From a virus: a DNA stretch of 43,800 nucleotides. Location of the stretch: IMG/VR virus record IMGVR_UViG_3300033153_006043, positions 1 through 43,800 of that record. One strand, 5' to 3'. Positions 46-43,800 of the stretch are shown in pieces (the first letter of the stretch is position 1; the number at the start of each line of letters is the position of its first letter). Made by a program: the position numbers and the translations under genes. The notes beneath the pieces were generated by a model, which was not told the origin of the DNA, searched no databases, and was given only the letters and a program-made list of their open reading frames with translations.

Positions 46-741
46 TTATTTTAATACGTGAGAGATAGCACGAGCCCACTGCTTGCGGATGTTAGCTTTG
101 GTATTGATCTTGTGGGCGGCGGGCCGCATCCATCGTTTGCGTTTGACTTTCATATCATCGAACGATTGCAGCTGCTTGAGCTGTCCGCGTTTGCTAAATA
201 CGTAGATACCCTTGCGCATCTTCCTGTACTTACGGCGCATGACAAAGGGCTTATTAGAAAACTCTTTGCTCATGAGCTGTAAGAATATCTGAATACGATG
301 ATCGCCATCAGCAGCATGGGACAGGTCGAAGTTGTTAGGGCTGAAGAACTGATTAGCAGGCTTGAGCCTGGCCTTAGCTGAGGCTGTGTTCTTCTGCTTA
401 CCTCGACGGGCTGCTATGCCGAATGCTCTCGTGCGTAATGGCGCTTTGCCCGTCTCTTGTTCAATCCAGCCGCTGAATCTCGATGTGCGTACTGAGCCGA
501 CCTCGGCTTTCTGTTGTGAGATGGGGAGGGGCTTGGCACGCGCCACTTTCATACGACTATTGACGAATCGATCACTACGAATATTCATGTCGGAAGCGAT
601 GTTTATAAGGGCTGCGGTGCGAGTCTCAAAGGCCAGATTATTGATCATTCCAGCAGACGCACGAGCGAACTTTTTAGGGGCTTTTTTGAAGAATTTCTCG
701 AGGTTCTTCAATCCGATAGATTTTTGGTTAAAAGTGGTCAT
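46..741 (-). CDS. Tail completion protein, lambda gpZ / gp10-like (probable)
   Basis: A basic protein of 231 residues. I chose the ATG at 741 (MTTFNQKS) over the upstream ATG at 825, because the 28 extra residues are low-complexity and overlap the repeat region. The N-terminal helix (LKNLEKFFKKAPKKFARA), the following Ala-rich segment and the Arg/Lys-rich centre and C-terminus resemble minor tail protein Z / HK97 gp10-type morphogenesis proteins, which bind the head-proximal end of the tail. The family call rests on overall pattern, not on an invariant motif. The late gene block at the other end of the window lacks such a gene between the neck proteins and the sheath, which fits this assignment. 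If the genome is circular or circularly permuted, this is the gene just upstream of the small terminase. Confidence 0.5.
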   Translation of the reverse strand: MTTFNQKSIGLKNLEKFFKKAPKKFARASAGMINNLAFETRTAALINIASDMNIRSDRFVNSRMKVARAKPLPISQQKAEVGSVRTSRFSGWIEQETGKAPLRTRAFGIAARRGKQKNTASAKARLKPANQFFSPNNFDLSHAADGDHRIQIFLQLMSKEFSNKPFVMRRKYRKMRKGIYVFSKRGQLKQLQSFDDMKVKRKRWMRPAAHKINTKANIRKQWARAISHVLK

Positions 742-972
742 ATTCGATAGTTTAGAGTATGACGCGCTAAGTGTCCAAAAAGGCTGAAAAACAGTATGAC
801 CACTTCTCCGACTCAAGCGGTTCAAAATTACACATGTATGTTTACCGCATACGGGATACGCTATGACATACTACATACGGCTGTTAGCTTATATCATTAT
901 TTATCTTTTTAAGGTCTATAGAAGTGGTCAAAGTGGTTAAACGGCGCACGGCTGCGGGTTTCTGGTTGATTT

Positions 973-1235: not shown

Positions 1236-1421
1236 ATGAACGCCGTCCCTCAATTACTTAAGCCCTCAGAAGTATGCGAGCGACTTAACATCAGTGCTGA
1301 GACTATGCACAAGCTCATAGAAAGCGGGGATCTGAAAGCCACTAAATTAGGCCCGAGATGTACGCGAGTTTATGCCGATAGCGTGGAAAGTCTCATAGAA
1401 AACGGGGCGCAGAATGCTTGA
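1236..1421 (+). CDS. Small helix-turn-helix DNA-binding protein (excisionase/MerR-like fold)
   Basis: A protein of 61 residues starting MNAVPQLLKPSEV. The pattern LLKPSEVCERLNISAETMHKL followed by a KLGPRCTRVYADSVESLI-type wing is the HTH_17 / excisionase winged-helix family, which binds short DNA sites. The ATG at 1236 is preferred over 1185 because the earlier start would precede the predicted transcription start and adds 17 unrelated residues. The gene overlaps the primase-helicase by 8 bases, so the two are translationally coupled. Its place between the iterons and the initiator suggests it binds the origin or regulates the operon. Excision function is unlikely because no integrase is seen. 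Confidence 0.75.
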   Translation: MNAVPQLLKPSEVCERLNISAETMHKLIESGDLKATKLGPRCTRVYADSVESLIENGAQNA

Positions 1422-3843
1422 AGTTGCCCGGCAATTAGCGGCCAGCGGGCTGCCTAACTTCCCATGTACTGTAGATAAAAACCCAGCAATTCAGAAAGGC
1501 GTATCCTGGAAAGACGTGGCCACGTTGGCCCCAGATCAACTGTATTGGCCGTCAGGTTTGACCGGCGTGCCAATACCTGAAGGCGTCATCGTTCTTGATC
1601 TCGATACCTACAAAGGGGTGACCCGTCAGCAGGTTGAGCAGACTCTCGGGTGTCCGTTACCTTGGGATCAGGCCTTCATCCAGCGCACCCAGAACGGCGG
1701 CGAGCATTATGCTTTTACCATCAACTATGACGTGGCCAATGGATCGAATATGTTCAACGTGCACGGTCTCGACACTCGGGTAGGCGGCAAAGGGTACATC
1801 TGTACCGGTGAGGGGTATCCGTGGGAAGGCTTTGGCCCTCTTCGAATGGCGCAACCCACCACCATGCTGCCTCCAATGCCTGATGCTGCCAGGAATGTAA
1901 TGGAACGCAAACAGCGTGACGTTACCGCAGTCGATCTGCCTCAAGGTGACCGCGATATTGAACTCATTCGTGAAGCCCTTCAACATATTAGCTCTGACTG
2001 CTCACGGACCGAATGGGTGTCAACAGGCATGGCGCTCAAACACCAATTTCATGATAAGCAAGATGTGGGCTTCGCTCTGTTTAAAGAATGGTCAGAATAT
2101 AATGCCGGGCGGCTTGACTATGAAACCCTGGAACAACAGTGGGGAAGTTTTAAACCATTTAGCTCTGATGGTGCCAGTATCACCATTGCAACGGTCATCT
2201 ACAAGGCCATGCAGGCTGGCTGGCAACCGCCTGCGGACGTGGACACTGCTCTGGCTTTTGGTGAAGGCGCGGCAACTGTCCAGACATTCGGGGCACTAAT
2301 AGATCTCATCACTGAGAGTGGTGGTGACCCTAAAATGACGGCCGATATTATTGAAGCCGTCAAGCACACGCCCTGCAATGACATACAGCGAGCCACTCTG
2401 CTGGCCACACTACATCGTGAGCTCAAAGACGCCGGCCTACTGACTAAACAGGTCAGGAACGCTCTTGACACAGCAGTGACTGGTAGGCAAGCCCCCTTTG
2501 AAGGCACACGCAATGCTCCCGGCCGTTATGGGAAGAATCATGCCCAGAACGCCAAGCTATTCATTAAGGTATGCTACCCCGATGGTTTATTGTTGCGGTC
2601 AGATGAGGTCTGGTATGTGTATACAGGTAAATGTTGGGAAGAGCAGGAAGATGGCGCGATGGAGACTATTCTAACCTACGCAATGTTAGATAGTGATCCT
2701 ATGAGCAGTACAGTTAAGGGCACTCTGGCCGTCGTGACTAGCTTATGTAGGACGCCGGATAAGATAGGCGGCGTTGATCCCAATCTGATCATATATGCAA
2801 ATGGTGTGCTCGACATGCGTACTTGGCAAATGAGCCCGCACCGTAAAGAATTGTTTACAACTAACATCCTACCCTACGATTACAGCCCGAGCGCGTTGTG
2901 CCCACGCTGGGTACGGTTTTTAGATGAAGTCTTCGACAGCGATATTGAGCGTATTGCATTGCTGCAGGAGTGGCTCGGCTACCTGCTCAGTCCTTCACGC
3001 AGACACCATAAAATGCTCATGCTAATAGGCCCACCGCGTAGCGGTAAAGGTACCATCGGACGTATTCTCCGTCATGTAGTCGGAGGCCAAAATTATGCTG
3101 CGGGTAATCTCAGTCTGTTTGCTAAAGATTCGTTTCTTGACGCCCTGCGCACTAAGCCCGTGCTATTCGTCAGTGACGCTGAGACCAAGATGCACCCCAG
3201 TGTGTTAGGGGCGGTCATTGAGCGGCTCAAAACGATCAGCGGTAATGACGAGATTAACTTCACACGGAAATTCAAAAGTAATATCAGTGAGACGTTGCCT
3301 TGTCGCATCACGATGGGGGCCAACGGCATACCCCGTCTATTTGATGACTCAGGGGCGTTGGCCAGTCGGTTTATGCTGTTAACAATGGATCGTTCGTTCC
3401 TTGATAACGGTGACAACTTTCTTGATGAGGCGCTGATCGCAGAGATAGAAGGGATTGCAGCTTGGGCACTTGCAGGTCTGGAACGTTTAAATGTAACGGG
3501 AAAATTTACCGTGCCGAGTGCCAGCATCGATGAGACGCAATATTTAAAAGAAGCTTATAGCCCTTTAAGGTTATTTATTGACGAAATCTGCGAGCAAGTT
3601 GATGGATCACACACAACAACGACTGATCTGTATCTTGCATATAAAGTGTGGGCGCTCGGTCAAGGGGACGACATCCTACTACGTAAAGTGTTCACGAGCG
3701 CATTCAAAGACGCTACGCGGGGACAGTTCATCTATGCTAGGGAACTGATCGAGGGGGCATACCTGCGTGTTTTCAAGGACGTGCAGCTGCGCACCGTCAC
3801 GTCAACTTCTAACACAGCCGCAGCATTCGAGGTGGTCAAATGA
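1414..3843 (+). CDS. Primase-helicase, P4 alpha-like (PrimPol + PriCT_2 + D5/SF3 helicase)
   Basis: 809 residues. Residues 1-150 form an archaeo-eukaryotic PrimPol domain: LDLD with D62 and D64, and GGEHY with H98. Residues 185-250 match PriCT_2 (the TEWVSTGMALKH segment and QWGSFKPF). Residues about 380-700 are a D5/P4-type SF3 helicase with Walker A GPPRSGKGT (539-547), Walker B VLFVSDAE (583-590) and the arginine in ALASRF (652). Such proteins prime, unwind and often recognise iterons at their own origin; the iterons 400 bases upstream fit this. It overlaps the HTH gene before it and shares ATGA with the pentapeptide gene after it. Length and domain order are normal for the family. Confidence 0.92.
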   Translation: MLEVARQLAASGLPNFPCTVDKNPAIQKGVSWKDVATLAPDQLYWPSGLTGVPIPEGVIVLDLDTYKGVTRQQVEQTLGCPLPWDQAFIQRTQNGGEHYAFTINYDVANGSNMFNVHGLDTRVGGKGYICTGEGYPWEGFGPLRMAQPTTMLPPMPDAARNVMERKQRDVTAVDLPQGDRDIELIREALQHISSDCSRTEWVSTGMALKHQFHDKQDVGFALFKEWSEYNAGRLDYETLEQQWGSFKPFSSDGASITIATVIYKAMQAGWQPPADVDTALAFGEGAATVQTFGALIDLITESGGDPKMTADIIEAVKHTPCNDIQRATLLATLHRELKDAGLLTKQVRNALDTAVTGRQAPFEGTRNAPGRYGKNHAQNAKLFIKVCYPDGLLLRSDEVWYVYTGKCWEEQEDGAMETILTYAMLDSDPMSSTVKGTLAVVTSLCRTPDKIGGVDPNLIIYANGVLDMRTWQMSPHRKELFTTNILPYDYSPSALCPRWVRFLDEVFDSDIERIALLQEWLGYLLSPSRRHHKMLMLIGPPRSGKGTIGRILRHVVGGQNYAAGNLSLFAKDSFLDALRTKPVLFVSDAETKMHPSVLGAVIERLKTISGNDEINFTRKFKSNISETLPCRITMGANGIPRLFDDSGALASRFMLLTMDRSFLDNGDNFLDEALIAEIEGIAAWALAGLERLNVTGKFTVPSASIDETQYLKEAYSPLRLFIDEICEQVDGSHTTTTDLYLAYKVWALGQGDDILLRKVFTSAFKDATRGQFIYARELIEGAYLRVFKDVQLRTVTSTSNTAAAFEVVK

Positions 3844-4349
3844 AAGTACTAAGCTGGAAAACGGGTGAGGTACTCTTCTCAGGAAAGTACCGCACTATGA
3901 GGGACTGCGTAGAAGCTGCTCGACTTAACACTCGGCTAGCTTATGCAGATCTTACCGGTGCCGATCTGAGAGGCGCCAAATTAGATGGCATGGTGTTGGA
4001 CAGGGCGCGGCTAAATGGTGCGGATCTTAGGGGCGCTAGCTTACAGGCCACCCTAATGGAAGATGCGAAGCTCATAGAGACTGACCTACGTGGTGCTGAT
4101 TTGAGGTGGGCTAAAGTTCGTCGGTCTAACTTCCAAGGGGCTGATCTTCACGGTGCTGAGCTTGCGTCTATATACGTACGTGACGCCGACTTCCGGGGGG
4201 CTAAACTTGATCGGGGGGCATTTGCACTCGTCACGACCGAGGGCCTTAAGCGGGGTAAACTTCCGATTGATAGCCCAATATATGCTGCGCTGTACGCAAA
4301 GCGGCAAGGGATAACAGGAGAAACGATATGTCAAAACTCATCAAAGTAA
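3840..4349 (+). CDS. Pentapeptide repeat protein
   Basis: 169 residues. From about residue 38 to 130 the sequence follows the A(D/N)Lxx rhythm (ADLTGADLRGAKLDG, NGADLRGASLQ, TDLRGADLRWAK), which folds into a right-handed quadrilateral beta-helix. A short N-terminal piece (KVLSWKTGEVLFSGKYRT) is common in phage versions. Members of this fold can mimic DNA (Qnr, MfpA), but most phage copies have no known job. It is translationally coupled to the primase-helicase through an ATGA overlap, suggesting early expression and possibly a role at the replication fork or against host enzymes; that is speculation. Confidence 0.88.
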   Translation: MKVLSWKTGEVLFSGKYRTMRDCVEAARLNTRLAYADLTGADLRGAKLDGMVLDRARLNGADLRGASLQATLMEDAKLIETDLRGADLRWAKVRRSNFQGADLHGAELASIYVRDADFRGAKLDRGAFALVTTEGLKRGKLPIDSPIYAALYAKRQGITGETICQNSSK

Positions 4350-7271: not shown

Positions 7272-7435
7272 TTACTAAGCATCTAATTGGGTACATAAAC
7301 GCGATACTGTTCACCGTATTAGCGGGGTTCTATCACGAACACGAACCTAGACATATTCTGCTCAGCGTGACACTCGCACTTAATGTGTACCACCTACTCA
7401 TTGGCGGGTATAGTAAAAAGGATGGCAAATTATGA
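7268..7435 (+). CDS. Tiny membrane protein
   Basis: 55 residues. Two short hydrophobic stretches (IGYINAILFTVLAGF and LLSVTLALNVYHLLIGG) are separated by a charged His-rich turn (YHEHEPRH). It overlaps both neighbours by 4 bases (ATGA type). No family recognised. Confidence 0.6.
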   Translation: MITKHLIGYINAILFTVLAGFYHEHEPRHILLSVTLALNVYHLLIGGYSKKDGKL

Positions 7436-8007
7436 GCAAAGACTACCCGTTACAGTGGCCAGATAGCATGCCACGAACTAACCGCCCCGTTTCCGATCAA
7501 TTCAGGACCACCCTCAATGGTGCGCTGACTAATGTCAAAAAGTCCCTCAAGCTATTTGCAGAAGACTCTAAGCATAAAGTCGAGAATATTGTGATCTCTT
7601 CTAATGTGACGCTCGGTAGCCTGACACCAAAAGATCCCGGCGTCGCAGTGTACTTCTCTTGGAACGGCCTATCAACCTGTATTCCAGTCGACCGCTATGC
7701 CAAGGTTGAAGCCAACCTGCAGGCCATACACCACTGTATCGAGGCTGAGAGAGTCAAGCTGCGACATGGCGGGGTCAACTTGGTACAGGCTGCCTTCCGA
7801 GGCTATGCAGCACTTGAGGCACCGACTACCAGCGCACACCGTCCATGGTATGAGGTGCTCGGCGTTGCTGAGGGTGAACCGGGGGCAAACATTGAAAATG
7901 CCTATAAACGTCTGCGCGGTAGGTTTCATACCGACAAACAGGAAACCGGTGACAGGATCAAGTATGACGAAGTGCAGAAAGCCTGGCGGGAGTATAAAAG
8001 TCTATGA
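7432..8007 (+). CDS. J-domain-like protein with altered HPD motif
   Basis: 191 residues. Residues 138-191 (PWYEVLGVAEGEPGANIENA, then YKRLRGRF-HTD-K and a YDEVQKAWREY helix) have J-domain order: helix I, helix II, loop, helix III. The catalytic HPD tripeptide reads HTD (166-168), so DnaK stimulation may be weakened or lost. The N-terminal 130 residues resemble no domain I know, with beta strands around NIVISSNVTLGSL and VAVYFSWNGL. It could redirect host DnaK during replication or assembly; that is an inference. Confidence 0.75.
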   Translation: MSKDYPLQWPDSMPRTNRPVSDQFRTTLNGALTNVKKSLKLFAEDSKHKVENIVISSNVTLGSLTPKDPGVAVYFSWNGLSTCIPVDRYAKVEANLQAIHHCIEAERVKLRHGGVNLVQAAFRGYAALEAPTTSAHRPWYEVLGVAEGEPGANIENAYKRLRGRFHTDKQETGDRIKYDEVQKAWREYKSL

Positions 8008-17531: not shown

Positions 17532-17758
17532 TGGCTACTAAAATCAAAACAATCCGCTACTGCTCAGAATGTGGAACTATTGGCGCAATACCTGCTAATA
17601 AGCAGAATTGCTGTCCTACAGCTAATCCGACATTCGCGCCCTATGATGTCGCAATCCAAGCGCATGCGGGCTTCCAGGCTGCCGCAGCATTGCATCGGGC
17701 TAAGCATATTATAGCCGCCACGAATACGGTCGGCCTTAAAGTAGTTGATCCGGAATGA
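17531..17758 (+). CDS. Small zinc-ribbon-like hypothetical protein
   Basis: 75 residues. N-terminal RYCSECGTIGAIPANKQNCC has the CxxC...CC spacing of a zinc ribbon; the rest is an Ala-rich helix (AGFQAAAALHRAKHIIAAT). It is squeezed between the MazG-like gene and the DNA polymerase, overlapping the polymerase start by 4 bases. No family recognised. Confidence 0.65.
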   Translation: MATKIKTIRYCSECGTIGAIPANKQNCCPTANPTFAPYDVAIQAHAGFQAAAALHRAKHIIAATNTVGLKVVDPE

Positions 17759-20277
17759 CGGTCGTCCACTGCAAACACCACACATATAATGTGTATATTG
17801 GCCGCCCAAGTAAATGGGGCAATCCTTTCGAGATTGGCAAAGACGGCACTCGTGAAGAGGTGATCCAGAAGTATGCTGACTGGATTAAAACGCAGCCCGA
17901 TTTAATTGCGGATCTTCCAGAATTGCGCGGACAAATATTAGGATGCTGGTGTACTCCTGAGGCATGCCATGGGGAAGTACTTGACTATATGGCTAATGAT
18001 CCGACCCTTCTACCTGCGGGCACTCAGATACCGGTTGGCTTCGGGTATGCCACGATATTGCCTGATTTTGACTTCGAAACATACAGCGAGGCGGGCTATG
18101 TGCTCGACCCCGTGACAGGTAAAGTGCGCGGTATTGGCCCGCAAGGCAAAGGCGGCCTTCCTGTTGTCGGCACGCCTGTTTATGCTGAGCATCCGAGTAC
18201 TGAGATACTCTGCCTATATTATGATTTAAAAGACGGTCAAGGCCGTCGTGCCTGGTATCCAGGTACGCCAGAGCCTACCGACTTATTGCAACATATCGCC
18301 GCTGGCAGCCCTATCGAGGCACACAATATAACGTTTGAATTCTGGATCTGGAACATAATCTGCGTCCGTCGATACGGTTGGCCGGCTCTTATACTCGAGC
18401 AGTGTCATTGCTCAATGGCTAAGGCCAGGCGGTTTGCGCTACCCGGTGCACTTGGCAATCTGGCTGGTGTTCTCGGCACGGCACAAAAAGACAAGCACGG
18501 TACCACTCTCATACAGCAATTATCTCGCCCGAACAATACAACAAAAAATCGGCAGTATTTCCGCCGTACGCCGGTTACCGACTGGGATTTATTCTGTGAG
18601 TTGTATGCTTATTGCGATCAGGATATCGTAGCCGAGGCCGGCGTATCTGCCCGTATGCCCGATTTAACTCCCTATGAGCGCCGGACATGGGAAGTTGATC
18701 AGACTATCAATGTACGCGGCGTGCAGGTCGATATAGACGCCCTGGATGCCTGCATCGACGTCATGCGCCAAGCTGAAACACGATATACCAATGAATTGGG
18801 CGTGATTACCGGCGGGGCGGTCAACTCTGTATCGGAAGTTGCTAAAATCGTGGGCTGGTTAAATGATCAAGGCCTGCACATACCTAATATGCAAGCCGAC
18901 ACCGTAAAGGAATACCTCGCCCGTGAGGATGTCAACCCCCCCTGCCGCCGAGTCTTGGAGATACGGGCTATCCTTGGCGGCGCTAATGTTAAGAAGTTGT
19001 ATACCCTTAAGCGCTCCGTCAGCAGTGACGGCCGACTCCGTGATCAGTATATGTACTGCGGGGCTGACAGGACAGGCCGCTGGTCTGCCGGTGGTGTACA
19101 ACTCCAGAACCTGACGAGTAAAGGCCCGAAATCAAAGACATGCAATGTCTGCGGGCGGATTGTTGGTAAGATCGCAATATGCTGTCCTGACTGCGGAGCT
19201 GGCGATCATCACTTTACTGAGCGCAAGGACTGGACGGTCGAGGCCGTCGAATGGGCTATTAAGGATATACTGACCCGTGATCTTGATCATATTATTACCA
19301 TCTGGGGTGATCCTGCTGACGTATTAGCAGGCTGTCTGCGTGGTCTATTGGTCGCTAAGCTTGGCCACGACTTAGTCTGTGCCGACTTCTCAGCCATTGA
19401 GGCGGTAGTTGCTGCATGCGTATCTCGCTGTCAGTGGCGGATCGACATATTTTCGAGTCATGCCAAGATTTACGAGGCGAGCGCAGCCAAAGCGACCGGC
19501 ATACCATTCGAGGAGATCCTGCAATATAAAAAAGACAACGGCCAACACCACCCTGCTCGTAAGACAATCGGCAAAGTACGCGAACTGGCTGGCGGCTATG
19601 GTGGCTGGATCAATGCCTGGAAGAACTTCGGCGCTGATAAATTCATGACAGACGACGAAATCAAAGCTGACGTCCTCAAGTGGCGCGAAGAATCCCCCGA
19701 GATCGTTGAGATGTGGGGTGGTCAGTTTAAATGGTGCGGTCCAGGTAAATGGGACTATAGGCCTGAACTGTTCGGTCTTGAGGGCGCTGTCATTCAAGCC
19801 ATACTTACACCAGGTCAATGGTTCGGCCATATCGATATTGGTTATATTGTACGGGACGATGTTCTGTTCTGTCGTTTGCCCTCCGGTCGATATCTGCATT
19901 ACCACCGTCCGAAACTGGTGCCTGCCCAGGATAAATTGAATCGCGGCCCCGCCTGGTCAATTACTTTCGAGGGGTTCAACACTGACACCACCAAAGGCCC
20001 GAGAGGCTGGCTCGTCATGGAGACATATGGGGGCCGGTTATTCGAGAATGCCGTCCAGGCTATCGCAGCCGATATACAGGCTGAGGGATTGGTCAGATTA
20101 GAAGACAATGGCTACCCCGTCGTAATGCACACACATGACGAGGGCGTCAGTGAGCTGCCAGAAGATCAGGGTAGCGTGGAAGAAATGGAGGCTATTATGG
20201 CACAGCGCCCCGAGTGGGCAACGTGGTGGCCTATCAGAGCAGCGGGCTGGCGTCACCGCCGTTATCAGAAGGATTAA
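17755..20277 (+). CDS. Family A DNA polymerase with N-terminal DUF4326 domain
   Basis: 840 residues. Residues 1-80 are a DUF4326 domain (VYIGRPSKWGNPFEIGKDGT, then GCWCTPEACHGEVL). Residues 100-300 hold a 3'-5' exonuclease: DFE at 106-108, HN at 190-191, YCDQD at 286-290. The polymerase has motif A CADFSAIE (D544), motif B K603...K607...L611...YG(615-616), and motif C HDE (794-796). A CNVCG...CCPDCG ribbon is inserted at 463-481. It would be the phage replicase. The residue equivalent to E. coli Phe762 is Leu611. Translationally coupled to the gene before it. Confidence 0.92.
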   Translation: MTVVHCKHHTYNVYIGRPSKWGNPFEIGKDGTREEVIQKYADWIKTQPDLIADLPELRGQILGCWCTPEACHGEVLDYMANDPTLLPAGTQIPVGFGYATILPDFDFETYSEAGYVLDPVTGKVRGIGPQGKGGLPVVGTPVYAEHPSTEILCLYYDLKDGQGRRAWYPGTPEPTDLLQHIAAGSPIEAHNITFEFWIWNIICVRRYGWPALILEQCHCSMAKARRFALPGALGNLAGVLGTAQKDKHGTTLIQQLSRPNNTTKNRQYFRRTPVTDWDLFCELYAYCDQDIVAEAGVSARMPDLTPYERRTWEVDQTINVRGVQVDIDALDACIDVMRQAETRYTNELGVITGGAVNSVSEVAKIVGWLNDQGLHIPNMQADTVKEYLAREDVNPPCRRVLEIRAILGGANVKKLYTLKRSVSSDGRLRDQYMYCGADRTGRWSAGGVQLQNLTSKGPKSKTCNVCGRIVGKIAICCPDCGAGDHHFTERKDWTVEAVEWAIKDILTRDLDHIITIWGDPADVLAGCLRGLLVAKLGHDLVCADFSAIEAVVAACVSRCQWRIDIFSSHAKIYEASAAKATGIPFEEILQYKKDNGQHHPARKTIGKVRELAGGYGGWINAWKNFGADKFMTDDEIKADVLKWREESPEIVEMWGGQFKWCGPGKWDYRPELFGLEGAVIQAILTPGQWFGHIDIGYIVRDDVLFCRLPSGRYLHYHRPKLVPAQDKLNRGPAWSITFEGFNTDTTKGPRGWLVMETYGGRLFENAVQAIAADIQAEGLVRLEDNGYPVVMHTHDEGVSELPEDQGSVEEMEAIMAQRPEWATWWPIRAAGWRHRRYQKD

Positions 20278-40899: not shown

Positions 40900-42837
40900 C
40901 TAAAGTGCCCGCTGTAAAGCATGCAATACTGTCAAACTATTGACCTGTTGGATCTGCATTGGCGAAGCGCCGTTCTGTTTCATAGTAGCACGAATATCAG
41001 CCACGCGCGCCTCCAGATAGACATCAGCGGCGCACATGGCGTACACCCTGCAATCCGTTGGCTCATTACGTTTGCCGCTGGGACAATGAAATGAGCCGTC
41101 AACTCGTTTCTCTTCTGCTGTTAGCCCTTTGAAATAGTCCTCTCGATAATCAACAGGGAAATCACAGAAGCCTGGACGCTGAGCATTATGATCCTCACGC
41201 CGGATCTTTAGATTCTTATATAGCAAGTTTTTATAAAAATTTGTCGATACCTCATAAAGCGTAGTGTCCGTGCCAATTTTTTGCGCCCTAAACCGTTTGA
41301 AGTTGGTCGACATCATCTCGTCGCCTTTTTCACCTTTGCGCTTTTTCAGTGTCTGGAAGCCTTTGCAGGGGTAAGTTGCCTGCCAGCCGGAGCAAAACCG
41401 ATAGACGGTGTCAGTGTGCATGCCATCACCTGAATCAATGAAAATCAGCGAGGGCAGCATTTCTTGATCGTCTTTACGTTTGAATATAGTCCCGCCGGAC
41501 TCTGCCCATTCCTGAAAGCTGGCCCAGGCACCGGCGGAGGGATCGTCAATCTCGCCCTCAAAGCGGAAATACCCTATTGACCAGGTGCGGTACCCAAGGC
41601 CATGGCCAAGGACTTCAAATTCTATCCGGGGTGGGTTCTCTTTGTCTTTTTTTGACCCACGCTGTACGTCAGCACCGATGGTCAGAAAGAGCACACCTTC
41701 CGGCACCGTTCCGCTGGTATAGGCACCTTTGAGCTCGATAACATTTTCAAGTTTCGGGCGCTGGCCAGTCTCGCGGTAGGGGAGGCCTAAATACAAATTA
41801 GTAAACGACCGCATGCCGTCTGGCGTTTCCTGGGCTTTCTCATATTTGTCGTAAAGTTCCAGCCAGGACATCATGCCGACGGGGGAATAGAGTGAATTTA
41901 TATAATAACTGCGGCGAGCTTTCGTGTAGGTCTTGGCCGTTGGCTCCCATTCACCCCCCTGCAGCATTGCACCTTTATGGTAATTAAATACCGCCTCGTG
42001 GCAAAACTGACAAAGATAATATACATTAACAAGTCTGCCCGCCTCTTTATCTGGTCTTAATCCATGATTGGAGTCCTCGCTGCCAAGTTCTAACGGCTGT
42101 TTTTTACCACAATGGGGGCAAGGCACCATAAAATTGCGCTGATCACCAAGGGCGAACCGTTCATATATTACCGATGTCTCATATAGCGTCGGGGTTGAGA
42201 ACGCCATGATCTTTTTACGCGCACCCCAGGCATTTGTCCGGCCTTCGGCCACATCGACCCAGGCACCTTCGCCGGTACGCAGCAAACGGGGTGCACCGTC
42301 AACTTCATCAAGTATTAGTATGCGTTTTGTGTCCGACCGTAACGACGAGGCGGATTGAGCCGAGGCCATATCCAAAGCACCGCCAACGTATTCTTTGGAA
42401 AATGTTCGATCACCTGATCGGCGAGTCTTTGCGCTGGCATCACTCTGGGCGTGGATCTTATGCCGAAAACCACAAGAATCGATCAAGGGATCCAGACGCT
42501 TTGTCGCCCATTTAAGGAGCAACCCCTCAGTTGCTGATACGTAAAGTACCTCAGCGGGGCTTGCATCCATCCAGTATGCAACCACATTTTCAGCCGCAGC
42601 TGTCAGACCTAATTGCGCACCCTTCATACAGTCAGTATTGATGACCGGCGAAAACGGCCCCATGTTATCCATGATCTCGACGGCGTAAGGTGTGCGGCTG
42701 TTTTCCCACAGACCTGGGAACGGTGTTGAAGGGGGCAGAACCCGCAGACCCTCCACATAATTCGATATTGTGGCCGGTGGCCGTTTTGTTGGTTTGAGTT
42801 TGTTTTCGCGCTTAAGGAAAGCGATCTCACTACTCAT
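40900..42837 (-). CDS. Terminase large subunit (lambda gpA family)
   Basis: 645 residues from the ATG at 42837, preferred over 42861 because GAGGAG is 10 bases upstream and the ATG overlaps the small-subunit stop. Walker A-like KGAQLGLT (about 72-79), Walker B ILILDEVD (173-180), and a nuclease part with IGADVQRG, LIFIDSGDG. The protein translocates and cuts DNA. The gpA family usually uses cos ends. Confidence 0.92.
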   Translation of the reverse strand: MSSEIAFLKRENKLKPTKRPPATISNYVEGLRVLPPSTPFPGLWENSRTPYAVEIMDNMGPFSPVINTDCMKGAQLGLTAAAENVVAYWMDASPAEVLYVSATEGLLLKWATKRLDPLIDSCGFRHKIHAQSDASAKTRRSGDRTFSKEYVGGALDMASAQSASSLRSDTKRILILDEVDGAPRLLRTGEGAWVDVAEGRTNAWGARKKIMAFSTPTLYETSVIYERFALGDQRNFMVPCPHCGKKQPLELGSEDSNHGLRPDKEAGRLVNVYYLCQFCHEAVFNYHKGAMLQGGEWEPTAKTYTKARRSYYINSLYSPVGMMSWLELYDKYEKAQETPDGMRSFTNLYLGLPYRETGQRPKLENVIELKGAYTSGTVPEGVLFLTIGADVQRGSKKDKENPPRIEFEVLGHGLGYRTWSIGYFRFEGEIDDPSAGAWASFQEWAESGGTIFKRKDDQEMLPSLIFIDSGDGMHTDTVYRFCSGWQATYPCKGFQTLKKRKGEKGDEMMSTNFKRFRAQKIGTDTTLYEVSTNFYKNLLYKNLKIRREDHNAQRPGFCDFPVDYREDYFKGLTAEEKRVDGSFHCPSGKRNEPTDCRVYAMCAADVYLEARVADIRATMKQNGASPMQIQQVNSLTVLHALQRAL

Positions 42838-43684
42838 CGCTGGCACGCTCCTCACTTTCAACTTCTTCCAGGAAGCTATTGATCACCCGTTTGACATGAT
42901 CAAGCGTGCGGAATACTTGCCGCTCTATCAGATCGCTGATCTCAACCTCTTTGGTGGAATCTTCTACCTCACAGATCGCCATAATGTCGGGTGCTATGCG
43001 CGGACCGAGCCCCCGCCATTCTGTTGAATCGATAGTGTAAATTTTACGGAATACACGCGAGGCCAACTCACGAGAAATCAAATCTTTCATTTTAATCTTG
43101 ACTTCCATTTCGACCTTTTCGGCGTTGGCCAGCGCCTTACGCAGATCGACCCCCTGCCGTGAGCTGGCATTTTTTGCGATCCTCAATTCTATCTCGCTGG
43201 GTTGGCCGGCTTCGTCTTCGGCCGCCTGCTCACGTTTTAAGGTTGTGAGTATTCGCTGCGCTCGATCAAAGCCAACACCTAGTTGGCGCTGAATGTAAGC
43301 GACCGTATAGCTCCCCGCCTTAACACATAACATGCGGGCTTGATTAGTCAAATCCTCTTCGGTGGGGCGTGCAGCTGCCGGGGTGGTTTTCGCGGCCTTC
43401 TTTTTGGCTTTTTTCTTCGCCTTTTTTTTCGGTGTTTTTTTCTTAGGCATAGTTGGTTTCTTAGCGGTGACCTTCTTTTTAGCTTTTTTCTTGGGGACAG
43501 CTACGTGGCCTGTCTTTCTGCCTGGCCCTGGCTTTTTCAGGCGCTCAGCATTCAGGACGTCAAAGTCTGCCCCCTCGAAATAACCGTCCACATCTGCTGT
43601 AAGTTTTCCGGCCCTGATCCACCGCCCGATGGTAGACCGTGAGACGCCGGTGGCGGTGTGCGCCTGGGATGCATTCATTCTCAT
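42830..43684 (-). CDS. Terminase small subunit with FtsK-gamma-like domain
   Basis: 284 residues. Residues 1-50 form a Nu1-type winged HTH (MRMNASQAHTATGVSRSTIG). Residues 62-100 are an AKKKAKKKA-type Lys-rich stretch like histone H1. Residues 109-155 (EEDLTNQARMLC, SYTVAYIQRQLGVGFDRAQR) match the FtsK gamma winged helix. Residues 160-284 are a helical C-terminus, probably for oligomerisation and binding to gpA. It probably recognises cos and hands DNA to the large subunit. Confidence 0.85.
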   Translation of the reverse strand: MRMNASQAHTATGVSRSTIGRWIRAGKLTADVDGYFEGADFDVLNAERLKKPGPGRKTGHVAVPKKKAKKKVTAKKPTMPKKKTPKKKAKKKAKKKAAKTTPAAARPTEEDLTNQARMLCVKAGSYTVAYIQRQLGVGFDRAQRILTTLKREQAAEDEAGQPSEIELRIAKNASSRQGVDLRKALANAEKVEMEVKIKMKDLISRELASRVFRKIYTIDSTEWRGLGPRIAPDIMAICEVEDSTKEVEISDLIERQVFRTLDHVKRVINSFLEEVESEERASDE

Positions 43685-43800
43685 AGCCCGAGTGTACCAC
43701 TGTCTAAGGCGTCAGCATAGGCCGTCTGGTGTACCACCCCGCCGGAGGAACAGATCGGCCGCCTTCGGAGGTGCTAAAAAGCGGGATGCGCGACAACTAG
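43685..43800. other. Non-coding right edge with GTGTACCAC pair, cos candidate
   Basis: No gene. Two identical GTGTACCAC 9-mers at 43692-43700 and 43729-43737, 37 bases apart, lie just upstream of the small terminase, where cosB sites would be in lambda-like genomes. They could be Nu1-type binding sites. The end of the window may or may not be the physical cos end. Confidence 0.4.

Follow-up and report, generated by a model that had tools for sequence, protein, structure and literature searches.

Small terminases and FtsK gamma domains in described systems

The closest described counterpart of the locus is the small terminase (TerS) of the Bacillus phages vB_BcM_Sam46/Sam112, which carries an N-terminal FtsK_gamma domain together with a Terminase_2 domain (Kazantseva et al., 2021; PMC8190038). 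Headful packaging of these phages was established by experiment, and KOPS-like sites were proposed to orient it (PMC8190038). No other published fusion of a TerS with FtsK_gamma was found in the literature searched. KOPS recognition by FtsK of E. coli and V. cholerae involves N1296, R1300 and E1303 or their equivalents (PMC2533119). The second reference point is phage lambda, in which cosB, with its three sites for TerS, comprises about 120 bp (PMC4669245) and the TerS ring was proposed to be a sliding clamp (PMC10810279).

Here the window, i.e., the whole stretch of 43,800 nucleotides of the virus record IMGVR_UViG_3300033153_006043, was analyzed computationally. The protein encoded at 42830-43684 is a small terminase with an FtsK-gamma-like piece in its linker. 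The joining of a TerS to a gamma domain, including the KOPS idea, has been in the literature since 2021, and the window holds a different arrangement. By the published description, the gamma domain of Sam46/Sam112 is N-terminal (residues 11-70) and precedes Terminase_2, whereas the gamma domain in the window is internal, a Nu1-type domain and a Lys-rich linker are present in front of it, and the protein has no Pfam match to Terminase_2. The Sam46/Sam112 domain is near the gamma domain of the Bacillus host and has a conserved DNA-binding site, whereas that of the window is divergent and lacks the wing. Lastly, Sam46/Sam112 are headful (pac) phages, while the window represents a presumed cos phage with a lambda-type terminase. 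The joining of gamma and terminase apparently occurred independently here, in another terminase class, another arrangement and probably another packaging mode; taken together, the two cases suggest that a DNA translocase may borrow its reading head from a different one.

Gene identity and domain order

The terminase genes and the parts of the TerS are as follows (all on the minus strand).

40900..42837, minus: large terminase (TerL) of the lambda gpA type, ATPase plus nuclease (GpA_ATPase 2.8e-53, GpA_nuclease 9.7e-52)
42830..43684, minus: small terminase (TerS), 284 amino acids, whole gene; phrog_57 match, adjoins TerL
43532..43684, minus: N-terminal DNA-binding domain of the Nu1/MerR type, residues 1-51 (weak HTH_17 match, fold matches)
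43367..43528, minus: Lys-rich linker, residues 53-106 (composition; mostly low model confidence)
43211..43360, minus: FtsK-gamma-like three-helix domain, residues 109-158 (Pfam FtsK_gamma, fold)
43226..43360, minus: Pfam FtsK_gamma match, residues 109-153
42833..43201, minus: C-terminal TerS region, residues 162-284, all helical (phrog_57; aligned in relatives)

The gene terS lies directly upstream of the gpA-type terL, the start codon of which overlaps its end. Residues 162-284 matched the PHROG family of small terminase subunits phrog_57 (E 3.3e-10, phrog_57 positions 75-189), and this region is expected to serve oligomerization and contact with TerL. At the N-terminus, the weak Pfam match was to HTH_17; Phage_Nu1 of Pfam did not match the window TerS and matched one of 22 relatives. 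The fold of residues 1-51 resembled BldC, Xis, MerR, DNA-binding domains of phage TerS and gpNu1 (1j9i) with Z of 5-7, values that are not decisive alone for small helical domains and were used together with the profile match. The Nu1-type N-terminal domain proposed in the earlier note was thereby confirmed, and so was the Lys-rich stretch behind it, which comprises 22 Lys and 2 Arg and is devoid of Asp and Glu in its 54 residues. The best net charge over 40 residues was +21 in the window TerS, compared with +6 to +14 in 22 relatives; basic linkers also occur in several of these. A chimeric assembly as the origin of the gene was considered and is unlikely, because it would need two in-frame joins within one open reading frame with TerS sequence on both sides.

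Homology and fold of the FtsK-gamma-like domain

A search with the whole TerS yielded a Pfam FtsK_gamma match at residues 109-153 (E 4.7e-7, 29.9 bits), just below the curated cut-off of 30.6 bits, and the domain region alone scored above it (32.5 bits, E 6.9e-8). The six-frame search of the record also placed a gamma signal at the terS locus. With our own gamma profile of 72 sequences the TerS reached 19.5 bits; the highest score among 2000 shuffles of its residues 101-175 was 11.0 bits.

Two AlphaFold models were compared with known structures. The full-length model was based on an alignment of 16 TerS, almost none of which spans the gamma region apart from the window sequence, and was thus built without gamma relatives. 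It contained helices at 109-123, 128-135 and 139-158, a three-helix core with a block-mean pLDDT of about 79-91. Residues 110-154 of this model superimposed on the gamma domain of 5dcf with Z 6.2 and an rmsd of 1.5 over 45 residues, and aligned also with 2ve8, 2ve9 and 2j5p. The second model covered residues 103-166 and was built with five other gamma domains. FtsK gamma domains were again its best structural matches, with 2ve9 on top in Foldseek (prob 1.00, rmsd 0.5 over 40 columns, E 0.22).

The match to FtsK gamma exceeds chance, because Pfam, the own profile in comparison with shuffles and the fold matches of both models agree, and it spans the three-helix core only. Like the FtsK/SpoIIIE gamma domains (PF09397; 2ve8, 2ve9, 2j5p, 5dcf), the window domain has this core and the motif QRQLGVGFDRA, with RQ..G...R kept. 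It differs from them in that no FtsK motor is attached, no wing is predicted and two of the three KOPS-reading residues are changed (see below). The profile match did not extend beyond position 47 of 63, and a strand or hairpin that could form the beta wing was absent from both models. The earlier note had proposed a second winged helix of the FtsK gamma type; the gamma assignment held by profile and by fold, while "winged" did not.

Distribution among relatives and in other phage proteins

TerS relatives were gathered next to related TerL genes, which had been found by TerL searches in viral and bacterial contigs. All of the 23 TerS that were scanned, the window included, matched phrog_57, while FtsK_gamma was matched by the window TerS only. 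It was absent from three further TerS obtained with a C-terminal search, and six relative records did not contain a gamma domain anywhere. An alignment placed the insert in a linker that varies in length in all relatives. Since none of the 25 relatives carries the domain, it is, by sequence comparison, a lineage-specific insert into a variable linker. The window TerS resembles lambda gpNu1 and the phrog_57 family in its N-terminal Nu1/MerR fold, its C-terminal helices and the neighboring gpA-type TerL, and would presumably share with them a cos about 120 bp upstream of terS; it is set apart from the 25 relatives without gamma by the insert and by a far more basic linker. A gamma domain is not known from gpNu1 either, and the view that the layout is new for a lambda-type terminase was borne out among all 25 relatives.

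Relatives of the whole protein were found neither in phages nor in viral contigs nor in plasmids, and this TerS-gamma layout is represented by a single sequence from one genome. When viral contigs were searched with the gamma region of the window, five distant gamma proteins were recovered, none of which was evidently a terminase. Among the best 80 of 537 gamma loci, the open reading frames resembled RdgC, primase, FtsK or unknown families and not TerS; 10 of these 80 were scanned formally, so that the phage gamma loci were sampled.

Gamma domains are nevertheless common in other phage proteins, i.e., RdgC fusions, primases, FtsK motors and families without assigned function. Like the window TerS, the RdgC and primase fusions and the families phrog_6576 and phrog_22882 carry gamma on phage proteins, a number of them acting on DNA, but they are not terminases and their matches cover the gamma profile almost completely. 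Among phages, RdgC-type proteins whose FtsK gamma domain is C-terminal are widespread (e.g., L048:2541-3686 and many Vibrio phage records). A phage primase at L091:2295-5363 has a complete FtsK gamma domain in its middle, and L094, L101, L105 and L112 probably encode the same type, judged by similar length and start. The primase of the window (1414-3840) has a DUF5906 region in common with the L091 primase, and no gamma domain was seen in it.

The presumed genome end and the interval upstream of terS

Genes for portal, protease, decoration protein, capsid E, sheath, tape measure and baseplate follow downstream of terL on the same strand. By this gene content, the head genes of the uncultured phage are lambda-like and its tail is contractile. 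The following features lie at or near the ends of the window.

43781..43800, minus: presumed cos end, CTAGTTGTCGCGCATCCCGC (TGTCGC near contig end, common to relatives)
43729..43737, minus: candidate TerS-binding repeat GTGGTACAC, copy 1 (direct repeat)
43692..43700, minus: candidate TerS-binding repeat GTGGTACAC, copy 2 (direct repeat; may overlap promoter)
46..825, minus: minor tail protein gene (phrog_4688, E 2.2e-10)

Between terS and the contig end upstream of it lie 116 bp, and in several relatives this distance is about 60-160 bp. A few bases from the contig end, the hexamer TGTCGC was present exactly in 6 of 12 contigs (window included) and with one mismatch in 3 more, a count to be read with the facts that the hexamer was chosen after looking and that L035 and L131 among the 12 are close kin. 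The contig L008 has a 15-bp direct repeat, CTATGTGTCGCGCGG, at both ends (L127, L124), as expected for filled-in cohesive ends. Because the motif at the contig end is common to the ends of relatives, the phage looks like a cos phage. A gene similar to 46-825 precedes terS in the relatives L002 and L003; the window would accordingly be an almost complete genome unit that was cut at the presumed cos.

The interval between contig end and terS has about the size of lambda cosB. Its two copies of GTGGTACAC are 37 bp apart; a 9-bp direct repeat occurs by chance in 2-3% of such intervals, and the copies are no more than candidates for TerS-binding sites. One further copy was found at 7385-7393 (minus), just upstream of the open reading frame that starts at 7432; it is the sole copy outside the interval between cos and terS.

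KOPS sites and KOPS-reading residues

The earlier note had suggested that the domain reads KOPS sites to choose the packaging direction. The KOPS octamer GGGNAGGG occurred once on the plus strand and not at all on the minus strand of the phage genome, for which second-order Markov sequences predict about 1.2 and 1.6; the number was thus at chance level, and a skew was not apparent. All counts refer to the phage genome. The motifs GGGCAGGG, GAGAAGGG and GAGAAG, counted for the KOPS versions of P. aeruginosa, B. subtilis (SRS) and L. lactis, were likewise at chance level, and apart from A-rich tracts no octamer was conspicuous by over-representation or strand skew.

At the positions of N1296, R1300 and E1303 the window TerS has D140, R144 and T147, so that one of the three reading residues, the Arg, is kept. 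The gamma domain of L030 also has Asp at the position of N1296. In the 72 sequences of the gamma profile, N and R at 1296/1297 were universal, which is in part a selection effect, because most gamma loci were fetched by patterns, and one of these requires the NR of GYNRAA. The domain is unlikely to be a conventional KOPS reader, because KOPS is at chance level and two of three reading residues are changed. By analogy to lambda, packaging polarity would come from cos itself. Together with the missing wing and the cos-like end, these results do not bear out the suggested choice of direction, and the insert probably neither reads host KOPS nor sets the packaging direction.

Possible roles of the insert

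For the TerS as a whole, the N-terminal Nu1-type domain would recognize the packaging site between genome end and terS, while the C-terminal helices would assemble the TerS ring and hold TerL. The Lys-rich tether of the lineage-specific insert could contact DNA non-specifically, and in the gamma-derived domain the wing and two of the three residues that read KOPS would have been lost. We infer that the insert binds DNA, and also its place of binding and its role: it may provide a further contact to DNA, re-specified or in part non-specific, which adds affinity or a different preference and strengthens assembly on cos DNA. That the TerS of this presumably cos-type, contractile-tailed phage has gained a second DNA contact with changed specificity is the reading that we favor, at a chance slightly above even. 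It is consistent with the identity of TerS and TerL, with the gamma homology by profile and fold, and with the restriction of gamma to the window TerS among relatives with variable and often basic linkers. The chance level of KOPS, the changed residues and the absence of the wing from the models also agree with it, as do the common end motif 60-160 bp upstream of terS, the terminal repeat of L008, the three TerS sites in the about 120 bp of lambda cosB (PMC4669245) and the grafting of gamma onto other DNA-handling phage proteins (RdgC, primase). If the ring works as the sliding clamp proposed for lambda, an additional contact to DNA could be of importance. Against it stand that the insert could contact protein instead, that the GTGGTACAC repeats are only mildly unusual and that the layout was found in a single sequence. 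In a more elaborate form, for which we see a rather small chance, the lambda-type terminase would have acquired an FtsK gamma module and altered its target: the TerS ring would carry two different readers of DNA on a tether like histone H1, the first directed at cos and the other at a further, oriented signal by which loading or processivity is tuned. Together with Sam46/Sam112, the locus makes the published proposal that gamma guides packaging testable, since a gamma domain that lacks the wing and has altered KOPS residues would be predicted to have either a different DNA specificity or no specificity.

Of the alternatives, the one that fares best, although it is unlikely, is that the domain reads a different, phage-borne and oriented sequence in or near cos. 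The scaffold of the recognition helix is kept and the base-reading residues are changed, as would be expected for altered specificity, and the Asp of L030 fits as well; however, the site is hypothetical, the wing is missing and, with the layout in one genome, there is no second genome in which a conserved motif could be compared.

Somewhat less probable is a decaying or neutral insert, for which the length and the charge of the linker would matter and the gamma fold would not. It is nonetheless a real rival: linkers differ widely among the relatives, the wing is lost and key residues are changed. It is opposed by the pLDDT of the three-helix core, by the still recognizable motif and by a reading frame that is open across A-rich tracts.

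Docking to a protein, e.g., a Xer recombinase of the host or some other partner of gamma, in place of DNA reading is likewise a serious rival: in E. coli, XerD is bound by this very surface of gamma, and RQFRIGYNR (1289-1297) of FtsK suffices to activate Xer recombination (PMC5052618). The window has RQLGVGFDR at this place. Yet a dif signal was not found in the window, the best match to E. coli dif having 11 mismatches in 28 positions, and we know of no reason for a terminase to use Xer docking, so that this role seems improbable.

Least of all, and very improbable, would the domain set the packaging direction by reading polar KOPS-like octamers in host or phage DNA: the gamma homology, R144 with the RQ..G...R core and the same proposal for Sam46/Sam112 speak for it, but KOPS, SRS and the L. 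lactis motif are at chance level without skew, no strand-skewed octamer is over-represented, N1296 and E1303 are replaced by D and T, a wing is not predicted and the ends look like those of a cos phage.

Further genes of the window

Three further genes of the window, all on the plus strand, were noted. A family A DNA polymerase-like protein (17755-20274) has an N-terminal DUF4326 domain (E 3.2e-27), an unusual-looking fusion in which the DNA_pol_A match is below its cut-off. A small protein (7432-8004) has a C-terminal DnaJ-like domain with an E-value of 1.5e-5, just below the cut-off. A pentapeptide-repeat protein is encoded at 3840-4346, directly behind the primase-helicase gene.
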